A stretch of 64,000 nucleotides of DNA, from the NCBI RefSeq assembly GCF_013394085.1, contig NZ_CP040910.1:821185-885184 (forward strand), in the 5' to 3' direction. The position numbers and the translations under genes are program-made. This DNA is from Limosilactobacillus fermentum (GTDB lineage Bacteria; Bacillota; Bacilli; Lactobacillales; Lactobacillaceae). The notes beneath the pieces are model-generated. The model made no database searches. It saw nothing but the letters and a program-made list of their open reading frames with translations, and was not told the DNA's origin. Shown one piece after another: positions 9,515 through 47,083 of this stretch (the first letter of the stretch is position 1; each line of letters starts with the position of its first letter).

Positions 9515-9780
9515 ATTTAGTGAGTAAAAAATGAGTAAGGACCAGGAGAGTAGGAGTGGGGCTCCCAAGCAGAGAGTCGCCGGCGCTGGGATGGCGATTG
9601 ACCCCCGCTTCGAACCACACCTGGGAACTGGACGGCTGAACGGAGTAGGTCGGCCCGGGACCACCCGTTAGCAGGGTTGAAGTTAGCTTCAACGTGAGGC
9701 CCCTTTCGTGAGGGAGGGGTGAACGGAGGTGGAACCGCGCTCCTGTGCCCTCTTGCAGCAATGCAAGGGGGCGTTTTTTA
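9515..9780 (+). promoter_or_regulatory. T-box leader specific for histidine
   Basis: A tRNA-sensing leader ahead of hisZ. The specifier region near 9613-9626 reads GAACCACACC, giving a CAC (His) codon in the usual context. The antiterminator block GGTGGAACCGCG is at 9728-9739. The terminator GCCCTCTTGC (9747-9756) with GCAAGGGGGC (9763-9772) is followed by six T. Uncharged tRNA-His would favour readthrough into the operon. Confidence 0.9.
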
Positions 9781-20203: not shown

Positions 20204-20827
20204 CTAAAAGGCCGGGCTGGCGCTGCGGTTATAGTAAACTAGGTGCTGGTCGCCGCTAGTGGGGTCAACTAGGATTTTGGTGACGCTGCAGTTGGCGGGT
20301 TCTAAAATCGTCAGGTCGTGCGACTGGGTGGCGTTAATGGCAAAGGAGCGGACGGTGAAGCCGTGGGTGACGACGGCGACTCGTTCGTCAGGGTGGGCCT
20401 TAGCGACCTCTTCGGTGAAGGCTTGCACCCGGGCTTCGACGCTGGCAAAGCTTTCCCCGTTAGCGACCGGGGCGTAGGCGGCCCGGACGTCGTTGATTAG
20501 GGGATCAAAGAGGTCCGGGTACTTAGTCATCAGGTCGGCGTTTAACTGGCCGTCCCAATCGCCGTAGGAAATTTCGAGCAAGCGGTCGTCGGCGACCATT
20601 GGCAGGTGGGCCGTTTGGTTAACAATCTGCGCCGTTTCAACCGTCCGGTGCAGAGGGGAGTGGTAGAGGGCGGCAAAACCAGTCAGGTCCAAGGCGCCGG
20701 CCAGTTCCTTGGCCTGGGCGATCCCCGTTTCAGACAGGTAGGTACGCTCGTCGTCGATCGTCCCCTGCTTGAGCCCGGCGACGTTGGCAGCCGTTTGCCC
20801 GTGGCGGATAATGTAAAGTTCAGTCAT
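20204..20827 (-). CDS. Histidine phosphatase superfamily (phosphoglycerate-mutase-like)
   Basis: 207 residues starting MTELYIIRHGQTAANVAG. The catalytic RHGQT motif is at residue 8, and the second His is in VAVVTHGFTVR. GGAGG lies 7 bases before the ATG at 20825-20827; a longer frame to 20851 has no ribosome site. The size and lack of the longer inserts favour a cofactor-independent phosphatase rather than a glycolytic mutase. Substrate not known. Faces the lipoprotein gene in the same direction. Confidence 0.85.
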   Translation of the reverse strand: MTELYIIRHGQTAANVAGLKQGTIDDERTYLSETGIAQAKELAGALDLTGFAALYHSPLHRTVETAQIVNQTAHLPMVADDRLLEISYGDWDGQLNADLMTKYPDLFDPLINDVRAAYAPVANGESFASVEARVQAFTEEVAKAHPDERVAVVTHGFTVRSFAINATQSHDLTILEPANCSVTKILVDPTSGDQHLVYYNRSASPAF

Positions 20828-20921
20828 GAGAAATCCTCCGTTCTTTTTCAAAGATTATAGCAAAGATTGTCGCCAATTCGGGTAAGAAAGCGTATTCTGG
20901 TCATCAAAAGGAGGGATTTTG

Positions 20922-21952: not shown

Positions 21953-21981
21953 TTGACATTTGATGAGAGTTCCCTTAGAAT
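21953..21981 (+). promoter_or_regulatory. Promoter of the ser leader and serCA
   Basis: TTGACA (21953-21958), 17 bases, TAGAAT (21976-21981). The start would fall near 21988, only about 33 bases before the leader-peptide ATG, leaving no room for a T-box stem I. Confidence 0.8.
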
Positions 21982-22020
21982 TTACTTAACTTAAAGGAAC
22001 GAACAAAGGAGGAAACCCAG

Positions 22021-22074
22021 ATGTTACAATTCAATCGCTACAACTTAGTTTCCTCATCACGGTCTTCACGCTAA
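22021..22074 (+). CDS. Serine-rich leader peptide of the serCA attenuator
   Basis: A 17-codon frame, MLQFNRYNLVSSSRSSR, with five Ser codons among its last seven. A near-perfect ribosome site AAAGGAGG precedes the ATG by 9 bases. It ends 65 bases before the attenuator terminator. The arrangement matches ribosome-mediated attenuation: stalling on Ser codons when Ser-tRNA is scarce would change the downstream RNA fold. Firmicute amino-acid genes more often use T-boxes, so this is unusual. Role is inferred; the frame and codons are seen. Confidence 0.7.
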   Translation: MLQFNRYNLVSSSRSSR

Positions 22075-22075
22075 C

Positions 22076-22175
22076 GAAGGCCGTCCTTTAGGGTTGGCCT
22101 TCACCTGGTGGGGGCTGACCTTGGTACCGTGGTACAAACGGGCCCCCACCAAAAGAGGTGGGGGCCCGTTTTTTT
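22076..22175 (+). terminator. Attenuator of serCA with alternative stems
   Basis: Stem 1: GAAGGCC (22076-22082) with GGCCTTC (22096-22102). Antiterminator: GGTGGGGGC (22107-22115) with GCCCCCACC (22142-22150). Terminator: CGGGCCCCCACC (22139-22150) with GGTGGGGGCCCG (22157-22168) and seven T. The antiterminator and terminator share 22142-22150, so they exclude each other. Confidence 0.75.
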
Positions 22176-22200
22176 CATTTGGAATCAAGGAGGAATTGCC

Positions 22201-23274
22201 ATGCCAACCTACAACTTCGCCGCTGGCCCAGCCACCTTACCCCGGCCGGTGCTAGAACAAGTCCAACGAGAGCTCCTGGATTACCAGGGTAGCCAAGTAA
22301 GCATCCTAGAAATCTCCCACCGCTCGCCGGTCTTTCGAGAAATCTACCAGCAGGCCAAGGAACGGCTCTTGCAGTTGATGGGGCTGAGCGCCGACGAGTA
22401 CACACCGCTCTTCTTGCAGGGTGGGGGGACCCTCCAGTTTACGATGGTGCCCTTAAACCTGGCCCGTGACCACCACCGGGTGGCCTACGCCGATACCGGG
22501 CACTGGTCGGCCCGGGCGATTGAAGAGGCGAAGAAGTTGCCGGACTTGACGGTTGACGTGGTCACCGAGGCCGGACCGGACTTCGCCCACATTCCGGCGG
22601 TGCCAGACCTACCAGCTGACACCTACGACTACCTTCACATCACCACCAACAACACGATCATGGGGCTGGCTTACCAGGACCTGCCGCAAACGGCGGTGCC
22701 GCTGGTCGGGGACCTGTCCTCCAACTTCTTGGGCCAGGCCTACGACTTTTCTTCCTTTGACCTAATCTACGCCGGCGCCCAGAAGAACCTGGCCCCGGCC
22801 GGGGTGACGATCGTGGTGGTCAAAAATGACTACCTAACGGAAGACCACGGCCTGCCAAGCATGCTCAATTACCCGGCCCTGGCCAAGAAGGAATCGGCCC
22901 TTAACACGCCGCCGGTCTTTCAAATTTACTTCGCCAACCTGGTCTTGAAGTGGTTAAAAGAACAGGGCGGGGTCCAGGCCATGGACGAGTTAAACCGCCA
23001 AAAGGCCGGCCTGGTTTACGATTACTTAGACCAGTCCAAGCTCTTCTCTAACCGGGTGGCGCCGGATTCAAGGAGCCTGACCAACATTCCCTTCACTACT
23101 GGGAAAGCCGACCTTGACCAGCGCTTCATCAAGGAAGCCGCCGCGGCCGGGTTGGTGAACTTAAAGGGCCACCGCTTAGTCGGCGGGATGCGGGCCAGCC
23201 TGTATAACGCCATGCCACTGGCCGGGGCCGTGGCCCTGCGTGACTTCATGCACCAGTTTGAACAAGAAATTTAG
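22201..23274 (+). CDS. serC: Phosphoserine aminotransferase SerC
   Basis: PLP enzyme that converts 3-phosphohydroxypyruvate to phosphoserine. 357 residues starting MPTYNFAAGPATLPRPVLEQ. Family features are the early NFAAGPA motif, the Lys Schiff base in YAGAQKNLAPAGVTIVVV, and TTNNTIMG. The ATG at 22201 follows CAAGGAGG; a longer frame would begin inside the attenuator. serA follows after 11 bases. No serB is seen in the window. Confidence 0.95.
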   Translation: MPTYNFAAGPATLPRPVLEQVQRELLDYQGSQVSILEISHRSPVFREIYQQAKERLLQLMGLSADEYTPLFLQGGGTLQFTMVPLNLARDHHRVAYADTGHWSARAIEEAKKLPDLTVDVVTEAGPDFAHIPAVPDLPADTYDYLHITTNNTIMGLAYQDLPQTAVPLVGDLSSNFLGQAYDFSSFDLIYAGAQKNLAPAGVTIVVVKNDYLTEDHGLPSMLNYPALAKKESALNTPPVFQIYFANLVLKWLKEQGGVQAMDELNRQKAGLVYDYLDQSKLFSNRVAPDSRSLTNIPFTTGKADLDQRFIKEAAAAGLVNLKGHRLVGGMRASLYNAMPLAGAVALRDFMHQFEQEI

Positions 23275-23285
23275 GAGGGGCGCAC

Positions 23286-24461
23286 ATGTATCAAATCAAA
23301 ACCTACAACGCGATCGCCAAGGAAGGCTTAGACACCTTTAAGGAAAACTACCAGGTCAACACCGGTCAGGAACCGGACGCCTACATGATCCGCAGCATCG
23401 ACCTGCACGACTACCAATTTGAACCGGGGCTGCTAGCGATCGCCCGCTGCGGGGCCGGCTTTAACAACATTCCGCTCGACGCCTGCTCCGAACAGGGGAT
23501 CGCCGTTTTCAACACCCCGGGCGGTAACGCCAACGCGGTGAAGGAAGTGGTCATCGCCCTGATGGTCATCGCCAACCGGAACCTGATCGAAGCGGCCAAC
23601 TGGAGCGCCCAAAACGTTGGCGAAGACATCTCCCTGCGCACCGAACGCGAAAAGTCGCGCTTCAACGGCCACGAACTCTTCGGCAAGCGTCTGGCCGTGA
23701 TCGGGATGGGCCACGTCGGTTCCTTGGTCGCTAACGCCGCCATTGACCTGGGGATGGATGTGATTGGCTACGACCCCTACCTGTCGGTGGACGCCGCATG
23801 GAACTTGACCGCCCGGGTGCAACGGGCCGCCACCCTGGCTGACGCGGTCAAGGGGGCCGACTTCATCACCGTCCACGTGCCGAAAAGCGAGGAAACGACC
23901 GGGATGATTAACCAGGAACTGCTCGCCCAGGTTAAGCCGGGCGCCATCCTGTTTAACTACTCGCGGCTGGGGATTGTCGACAACCAGGCTGCCGTGGCCG
24001 CCCTGGCCAATGGTCAACTGGGCCAGTACGTTACCGACTTCGGCGAGGACTGCCTGCAGGACAACCCGAAGGTCACGATTACCCCGCACCTGGGGGGCTC
24101 GACCAAGGAAGCCGAAATCAACTGCGCCAAGATGGCCGTCGACGAACTGACCCAGTATTTGGAGACCGGGAACACGACCAACGCCGTGAACCTGCCGGAC
24201 GTGGTGGCCCCGTTCACCAGCCAGCACCGCTTCACGATCATTCACCGCAACATCCCCAACATGTTAGGGCAAATTTCGACGGCGATCGCCAAGGCCGAGG
24301 TCAACATCGACAACCTGGTCAACCGGGCCAAGGGCGAGTACGCCTACACGATGGTCGACGTCGGCGAATTGACCGCCGAACAAACCGAGATTCTAACGAC
24401 CACCCTCAATCAGATTGACGCCGTCAGCCGGGTCCGCTTGCTGTATCGGCCAAAACAGTAA
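23286..24461 (+). CDS. serA: D-3-phosphoglycerate dehydrogenase SerA
   Basis: Oxidises 3-phosphoglycerate, the first step of serine synthesis. 391 residues. The NAD-binding motif is GMGHVGSLVANAAIDLGMDV. Catalytic residues lie in LFNYSRLGIVD and ITPHLGGSTKEAE. A C-terminal ACT-like segment (about 310-391; HRNIPNMLGQISTAIAKAEV) suggests feedback by serine. Length is shorter than the E. coli type and matches the lactobacillar form. Forms a two-gene operon with serC. Confidence 0.95.
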   Translation: MYQIKTYNAIAKEGLDTFKENYQVNTGQEPDAYMIRSIDLHDYQFEPGLLAIARCGAGFNNIPLDACSEQGIAVFNTPGGNANAVKEVVIALMVIANRNLIEAANWSAQNVGEDISLRTEREKSRFNGHELFGKRLAVIGMGHVGSLVANAAIDLGMDVIGYDPYLSVDAAWNLTARVQRAATLADAVKGADFITVHVPKSEETTGMINQELLAQVKPGAILFNYSRLGIVDNQAAVAALANGQLGQYVTDFGEDCLQDNPKVTITPHLGGSTKEAEINCAKMAVDELTQYLETGNTTNAVNLPDVVAPFTSQHRFTIIHRNIPNMLGQISTAIAKAEVNIDNLVNRAKGEYAYTMVDVGELTAEQTEILTTTLNQIDAVSRVRLLYRPKQ

Positions 24462-30449: not shown

Positions 30450-30478
30450 AAAAAGGTGGCAGGGGACTTCCCCCTGCC
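30450..30478 (-). terminator. FMN riboswitch expression-platform terminator
   Basis: Minus strand GGCAGGGG and CCCCTGCC around GAAGT, then ACCTTTTT. Confidence 0.85.
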
Positions 30479-30481
30479 TTT

Positions 30482-30606
30482 TCTTCTCCCATCCAGACTT
30501 TCACTGTCGGTACCAGAATCGCACTGGTTCAGCCGCAAATTTGCGGGTCACGGACTTCAAGCATTGCTTGTCACCGTCGGTCGGGATTTTCACCCTGCCC
30601 CGAAGA
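30482..30606 (-). promoter_or_regulatory. FMN riboswitch (RFN element)
   Basis: On the minus strand the conserved blocks are in order: CTTCGGGGCAGGGTGAAAAT, CCCGACCGACGGTGA, GAACCAGTGCGATTCTGGT and CCGACAGTGAAAGTCTGGAT. FMN binding would favour the terminator at 30450-30478 and shut off ribDEBAH. Confidence 0.96.
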
Positions 30607-30628
30607 AATTATTTATTTAATTGACTAC

Positions 30629-40654: not shown

Positions 40655-40928
40655 AATCAAATTAAAGAAAAGTTAGAAAGATGAGTAAACCGGGAGGGGT
40701 GCCCAGAGAGTCAGCGCTTGGTGAAAGCTGAACTCCCTGAACGGTTGAAGATGGTCTTTGTGCAATGCCGGGGTGAGCCAGTGGTGAGCCCCGACCGGGT
40801 TAACGCCCGTTATCACCGTTACGGCTTGTTGGAGCCGGTTGAGGGTCCCCGCGGGGACCGAAAATGGGTGGTAACACGTTGATCAACGTCCCATGAGGTA
40901 GTAATGCCTCATGGGACGTTTTCTTTTG
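40655..40928 (+). promoter_or_regulatory. T-box leader, probably methionine-specific
   Basis: Stem I region 40680-40800 includes GAAGATGGTC, giving an ATG specifier in the usual context. The antiterminator motif GGGTGGTAACACG is at 40865-40877; its TGGT can pair with the ACCA end of tRNA-Met. The terminator AACGTCCCATGAGG (40885-40898) with CCTCATGGGACGTT (40907-40920) and TTC TTTT follows. It controls the metQ-like gene and probably msrA copy 2. Confidence 0.88.
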
Positions 40929-46845: not shown

Positions 46846-46852
46846 CATTTCG

Positions 46853-46945
46853 CCGACCGTTGCTTCCCTCCGCGAGTCCAAACTCCCAGGTTCAAAGGGT
46901 CCGCCAATTGGCGTCTCAGTCGGTGGTCCGACACCCCTAGCAACT
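46853..46945 (-). promoter_or_regulatory. TPP riboswitch (THI element)
   Basis: Minus strand carries the conserved blocks AGGGGTGTCGG, ACTGAGA, ACCCTTTGAACCTG and GCGGAGGGAAG. TPP would favour the terminator at 46820-46845. A TATAAT (46962-46957) on the minus strand is the likely -10 box. Confidence 0.95.
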
Positions 46946-47083
46946 ATTACCCCTCCATTATAGCGGGGATCAGTCAGAAAACATAGTGCATTCTTAACTT
47001 TGAACTAAGCTATAATTATTTATGGTCAAAGCATGCGCTGCACCCTTATAATATTGCTGAAAATTGAAAGTGGAGTTGATAAA

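Follow-up and report, generated by a model that had tools for sequence, protein, structure and literature searches.

The window analyzed here, a stretch of 64,000 nucleotides from a complete 1.89-Mb genome of Limosilactobacillus fermentum, carries on its forward strand the serine biosynthesis genes serC (22201 to 23274), encoding a phosphoserine transaminase (NCBIfam NF003764, 470.7 bits; cut-off, 253), and serA (23286 to 24461), a member of the phosphoglycerate dehydrogenase family that scored below curated cut-offs and was named from its best family and its position. The nearest other SerC sequence, found in a Limosilactobacillus metagenome bin, is 78% identical. A histidine phosphatase gene (PF00300; PspA/CobC-like, below curated cut-offs) is located close to serCA on the reverse strand (20204 to 20833), and apparently the same gene, with the protein start MTE.YIIRHG, is divergently oriented and adjoins the serC leader in many relatives; it is a candidate for the missing phosphoserine phosphatase.

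Upstream of serC, a sigma-70-type promoter (TTGACA-17-TAGAAT, 21953 to 21981, forward strand) matches the consensus at 11 of 12 positions, with 0.3 such promoters expected per shuffled region, and agrees with the ideally spaced promoter proposed in an earlier sequence-only reading of this DNA. Transcription would start near 21988. The 17-codon leader open reading frame (ORF; 22021 to 22074, forward strand) encodes the peptide MLQFNRYNLVSSSRSSR and is preceded by the Shine-Dalgarno (SD) sequence AAAGGAGG (22005 to 22012, forward strand), which ends 8 nt 5' of the ATG codon at 22021 and has counterparts at related loci, so that the strong ribosome site and the 17-residue peptide with five Ser codons claimed by the same reading were also recovered. 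The Ser codons TCC, TCA, and TCA (22051 to 22059) and, after an intervening CGG, TCT and TCA (22063 to 22068) constitute a putative stall site at 22051 to 22068 of the forward strand. No other SD-preceded short ORF of the window contains five Ser codons within seven codons, and in composition-matched random sequence only 2 of 2,220 such ORFs did. Four of the five Ser codons are TCA or TCT, despite the fact that these two are the rarest Ser codons in five neighboring genes of the window (13 of 103). The leader ORF is followed by a highly structured RNA stretch of about 100 bases, a terminator, a second SD sequence, and then serC, and the leader folds with a z score of -7.5 relative to shuffles.

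Amino-acid-dependent antitermination of biosynthesis genes is also the function of the T-box (RF00230), which senses uncharged tRNA directly and is common in this genome, with matches at 32 places (E ≤ 0.001). A degenerate or unusual tRNA-Ser T-box is nevertheless an extremely improbable explanation for the serC leader: all 32 matches lie elsewhere, the leader itself gave none even at E ≤ 10, and only about 33 nt separate the 5' end of the transcript from the leader ORF. The absence of a T-box postulated by the sequence-only reading was thereby upheld. Other regulatory elements of the window comprise two T-box-like elements below the Rfam gathering score, both on the forward strand (9529 to 9755, 85.7 bits; 40666 to 40896, 83.7 bits), and an FMN (30477 to 30611) and a TPP (46848 to 46948) riboswitch on the reverse strand.

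In the leader, the Ser codons are connected to the terminator by a relay of six segments, all on the forward strand, which can form either the helices 1:2, 3:4, and 5:6 (termination) or 2:3 and 4:5 (readthrough). Segment 1 (22059 to 22067) is part of the leader ORF and pairs with 22076 to 22084, and segment 2 (22076 to 22087), directly 3' of the stop codon, can alternatively pair with segment 3 (22076 to 22087 with 22091 to 22102). Segment 3 (22088 to 22104) would have segment 2 as its partner during a stall and segment 4 without a stall (22088 to 22104 with 22109 to 22125). Segment 4 (22106 to 22125) can instead act as an antiterminator by pairing with segment 5 (22106 to 22116 with 22141 to 22151). 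Segment 5 (22136 to 22151) otherwise provides the 5' arm of the intrinsic terminator, and segment 6 with the T-run (22157 to 22178) provides its 3' arm, resulting in a helix of 15 bp (22136 to 22150 with 22157 to 22171) upstream of the T-run. The odd segments partly resemble one another, as do the even segments (repeats D2 and D3). The antiterminator and terminator stems given by the sequence-only reading proved exact and are indeed mutually exclusive, but they are merely the last two of five alternating helices; the pairings 1:2, 2:3, and 3:4 had been overlooked, and the six-segment relay replaces the single antiterminator/terminator pair that had been taken for the whole switch. Since the Ser codons are too far from the antiterminator at 22107 for a stalled ribosome to act on it directly, the relay is the link between the two. 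Its score is -94.9 kcal/mol, compared with a mean of -39.7 kcal/mol for shuffles, and none of 100 shuffles was as good.

The relay is not confined to the window. Among 66 leaders, the full set of pairings 1:2, 2:3, 3:4, and 4:5 surpassed every one of 100 dinucleotide shuffles in 54 and 95 or more of them in 57, counts that are not probabilities because the leaders are related by descent; in this test, as in the masking test described below, the helices were chosen as the strongest and the sequences are related and not independent. A terminator-like hairpin was picked in all 66 leaders. A bulge-free search, which recognized the relay in 37 of 66, was superseded by the later helix search. Covariation was counted exclusively on alignment A1 (24 leaders from several genera), because alignment A2 of the Limosilactobacillus group was shifted by one base at segment 2. 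The terminating set of helices was 93.8% paired and comprised 14 pairs with two-sided changes (shuffles, 5.9 pairs; about 50% paired at best after sliding of the structure), and the antiterminating set was 91.5% paired with 10 such pairs (shuffles, 3.8 pairs; about 52% paired at best after sliding). In both sets, the two-sided changes as well as the standard pairs were more numerous than in each of 500 shuffles. Judged from this alignment, the leaders appear to maintain a conserved pair of incompatible structures, which is what an attenuator needs.

The position of the ribosome was modeled with an assumed footprint that ends 12 nt past the first base of the A site. In 54 leaders, a ribosome whose A site holds the second invariant Ser codon masked segment 1 (median, 100%) and left segment 2 exposed (0% masked). 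A ribosome placed at the stop codon masked segment 2 to an average of 97% and segment 3 to about 2%; in the window leader, its coverage of segment 2 was 75%. Folding was evaluated at the decision point, i.e., when segment 5 has emerged and segment 6 has not. A stalled ribosome then resulted in 2:3 plus 4:5 in 36 of 54 leaders, and a ribosome at the stop codon resulted in 3:4 with segment 5 free in 37 of 54. In the window leader, 4:5 also forms with the ribosome at the stop codon, and its balance between 3:4 and 4:5 hence depends on the order of folding. Equilibrium folding of the full-length leader under the ribosome mask revealed no switching, and the terminator won in almost every leader with or without a stall; the choice between the two conformations must therefore be kinetic.

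Strong and mutually exclusive helices would also be expected of an RNA switch that is governed by a protein or by serine itself, with the ORF being incidental, and a different leader element of unknown effector, RF00517, precedes serC-serA in alphaproteobacteria, where its two short stems have been suggested to sequester the ribosome site of serC (Corbino et al. 2005, PMC1273637). Such a riboswitch-like control is highly improbable for the serCA leader of L. fermentum, whose ORF, SD sequence, and Ser codons are conserved with wobble variation, whose helix spacing matches the ribosome footprint, and in which no aptamer-like core is apparent outside the pairing segments. No Rfam family reached its gathering score over the leader, RF00517 had no match upstream of serC in the window, and, unlike the leader studied here, that element is described without a leader peptide or a terminator in PMC1273637.

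The conserved core of the leader peptide is S-S-X-S-[ST], with W, R, K, L, or Q as the variable residue X. The codons at positions -2, -1, and +1 relative to X specify Ser in all 58 tabulated leaders, with TCC, TCA, and TCT alternating at the wobble position. Codon -3 is mostly TCN, AGY, or a Val codon, and, since an exchange between TCN and AGY requires at least two base changes, serine itself is apparently selected there. At codon +2, the place of the fifth Ser codon (codon 16), most leaders have TCN (Ser) or ACN (Thr), in correspondence with segment 2 (GAAGGCC or GTAGGCC); the alternation between the two amino acids follows the requirements of base pairing with that segment. A variable codon between invariant Ser codons means that the peptide would track serine only. 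It might be objected that a leader peptide can respond to a general slowdown of translation rather than to serine, as is known for ermC (discussed in PMC2965389). This is scarcely credible for serCA, considering that Ser is the only conserved amino acid of the peptide, that the intervening Trp or Arg codon is not conserved, and that the regulated genes make serine.

A very unlikely explanation for the conservation of the Ser block is that the codons are no sensor at all and that TCCTCC serves as an anti-Shine-Dalgarno sequence hiding the leader SD, with regulation at initiation. The duplex between the SD sequence and the Ser block is indeed stronger than that of synonymous recodings (mean, -9.8 versus -7.4 kcal/mol) and reaches -8 kcal/mol or lower in 48 of 61 leaders, and the window leader folds partly in this way (22008 to 22015 with 22049 to 22055). 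Its own duplex, however, scores no better than the recodings, and elsewhere the pairing is broken or weakened by TCATCATCA (L065 and L068, -1.3 kcal/mol) or by TCT codons while Ser is kept; in several leaders, the first Ser codon is AGC or AGT. The relay, the terminator, and the placement of the stop codon would also be left unexplained. At most, the pairing may represent an extra layer, which may limit reloading of the leader, and part of the base conservation in the Ser block may serve this other purpose. A plain anti-SD role was rejected for the serC leader, as were the T-box and RF00517.

Ribosome-mediated transcription attenuation, with charged tRNA-Ser as the sensed signal, is therefore very probably the function of the serCA leader, as far as comparative sequence analysis can indicate. 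At this level, the individual parts are recognizable, the Ser codons are conserved, both conformations covary, and the spacing fits the ribosome footprint; together, these features correspond to a trp- or his-type attenuator: a short ORF with its own SD sequence between promoter and first gene, conserved codons for the amino acid of the operon (core Ser in 58 of 58, with serC downstream), an intrinsic terminator before the first structural gene, mutually exclusive and covarying terminator and antiterminator structures, and a spacing by which a stalled ribosome would mask segment 1 and one at the stop codon segment 2. The sequence-only reading had thus been right in kind, with conserved Ser codons and a covarying switch, but the relay was needed to complete the mechanism.

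We infer that the leader ORF is translated, that ribosomes stall within it, and that serine starvation causes readthrough. Polymerase would start near the position given above, and a ribosome would load on the leader ORF behind it. With ample Ser-tRNA, the ribosome would reach the stop codon and cover segment 2, so that segment 3 pairs with segment 4, leaving segment 5 free to form the terminator with segment 6, and serC-serA would not be transcribed. If serine is short, the ribosome would stall on the Ser codons and cover segment 1, so that segment 2 pairs with segment 3; segment 4 would then be free to pair with segment 5, the terminator would be preempted, and serCA would be transcribed. 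Without translation, 1:2, 3:4, and 5:6 would form and transcription would stop.

Within the genus, serC was found in 11 of 50 genomes, and within the family in 169 of 397. Of the 94 Lactobacillaceae serC genes sampled, 63 have a Ser leader peptide upstream, 61 of them recognized by a script for SD-preceded Ser-rich ORFs and two by inspection (L080 and L081). The peptide occurs in 15 of the 22 genera covered, and the named contigs that carry it belong to Limosilactobacillus, Ligilactobacillus, Agrilactobacillus, Secundilactobacillus, Companilactobacillus, and Lacticaseibacillus. The check proposed along with the sequence-only reading, i.e., whether related serCA leaders conserve the Ser codons and the stems, accordingly yielded a widespread peptide, invariant Ser codons, and a conserved covarying switch. 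The remaining 31 of the 94 upstream regions lack the peptide. Six of these, from two genera (L045 to L048 of g2; L121 and L122 of g39), have a terminator without a Ser peptide, a combination that the earlier reading had regarded as adverse; their leaders are apparently unrelated in sequence and read as a replacement rather than as a loss of the peptide from the same leader. They possibly contain another regulatory RNA, and no Rfam regulatory match was found in those scanned. The g2 leaders share a conserved stretch with GGACTACAATC and, further on, CTGGCGTCT. Most other peptide-less serC regions have no strong terminator, and a T-box was not found in a sample of them. Of 20 serC upstream regions from six other Lactobacillales families, none contained a Ser leader ORF showing the core motif, and Rfam elements were likewise not detected in them. 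From the regions sampled, the serine leader system appears to be family-wide, occurring across much of the Lactobacillaceae and in most lactobacilli sampled.

A three-segment variant that retains the Ser peptide occurs in the genera g6 and g16 (L063, L064, L079, L080, and L081), e.g., with the peptides SSSPVGTHC, SSSTQSLV, and SSSTRPLM. Here, the terminator's 5' arm has the final part of the ORF as its direct pairing partner (8 to 12 bp), and 5 to 36 of 1,000 shuffles were as good. According to this model, a stall on the earlier Ser codons would leave the pairing segment largely free, and a ribosome at the stop codon would mask it. A covariance model built from A1 detects the serC leaders of nearby genera and misses that of the window under fast filters; among the weak matches inspected, no Ser leader was found and one proved to be an aromatic leader. 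Aromatic-rich short ORFs were observed upstream of DAHP synthase (aroF-type) genes in three genera (L184, L214, L215, L218, L220, and L231), with the ends QAYYFWSR, RFYYYWYV, FYSYW, and YYSFW before the stop codon, and in L184 (G061:C1:57300-59300) a promoter and terminators are visible; these ORFs are likely aromatic leader-peptide attenuators. In L049, L050, and L053, a near-threshold trpB ncRNA motif (RF04312, 48 to 53 bits; gathering score, 59) lies upstream of serC on the opposite strand.

The his operon leader of enterobacteria follows a six-segment scheme, in which A:B, C:D, and the terminator E:F alternate with B:C and D:E. In trpL, the ribosome covers segment 1 when it stalls and segment 2 when it reaches the stop codon, and its position decides between antiterminator and terminator. 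The serCA leader resembles the his leader (RF00514) in its run of codons for the amino acid of the pathway, but these codons specify serine instead of histidine, the sequence is unrelated (no RF00514 match at E ≤ 10), and the host belongs to the Lactobacillaceae. It shares the masking logic and the terminator/antiterminator choice with trpL, which has four segments and Trp codons, whereas two further switching segments relay the signal in serCA. By its architecture, the serCA leader would thus work like the his and trp attenuators, and by homology it belongs to neither. For Firmicutes, histidine leader-peptide attenuators have been predicted where T-boxes were expected (Naville and Gautheret 2010, PMC2965389; Ashniev et al. 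2022, PMC9413887), and a published search with RF00514 recovered no match among the his genes of Firmicutes (PMC9413887). The predicted cases concern his genes of Bacillus, Peptostreptococcaceae, and Erysipelotrichales, and the available parts of both papers describe no serine or Lactobacillaceae case. The amino acid attenuators listed in a survey from 2013 are specific for His, Leu, Thr, Trp, Ile/Val, or Phe (PMC3766115). No serine leader peptide or attenuator of Firmicutes was found in the open literature searched, with subscription papers being mostly outside its scope, and the serine attenuator of lactobacilli appears to be undescribed so far.

A serine sensor would be a new specificity that extends the list of attenuators, and it is located in Firmicutes, where T-boxes usually serve and for which the literature available to us describes only histidine leader peptides. 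The device is short, occurs widely among bacteria of food and the gut, and is not represented in Rfam. A relay with both conformations covarying over several genera would be a good natural test case for models of cotranscriptional folding, and the codons of the leader may reveal which tRNA-Ser isoacceptor reports serine starvation. For the Lactobacillaceae, we regard it as probable that a family-wide, serine-specific class of attenuators exists, itself probably ancestral and with two architectures, i.e., the six-segment relay and the direct three-segment form, and that leader peptides for other pathways, e.g., aromatic ones (Tyr/Phe/Trp) before DAHP synthase, accompany it, which would make classical attenuation a general strategy of bacteria for which reliance on T-boxes has been assumed.
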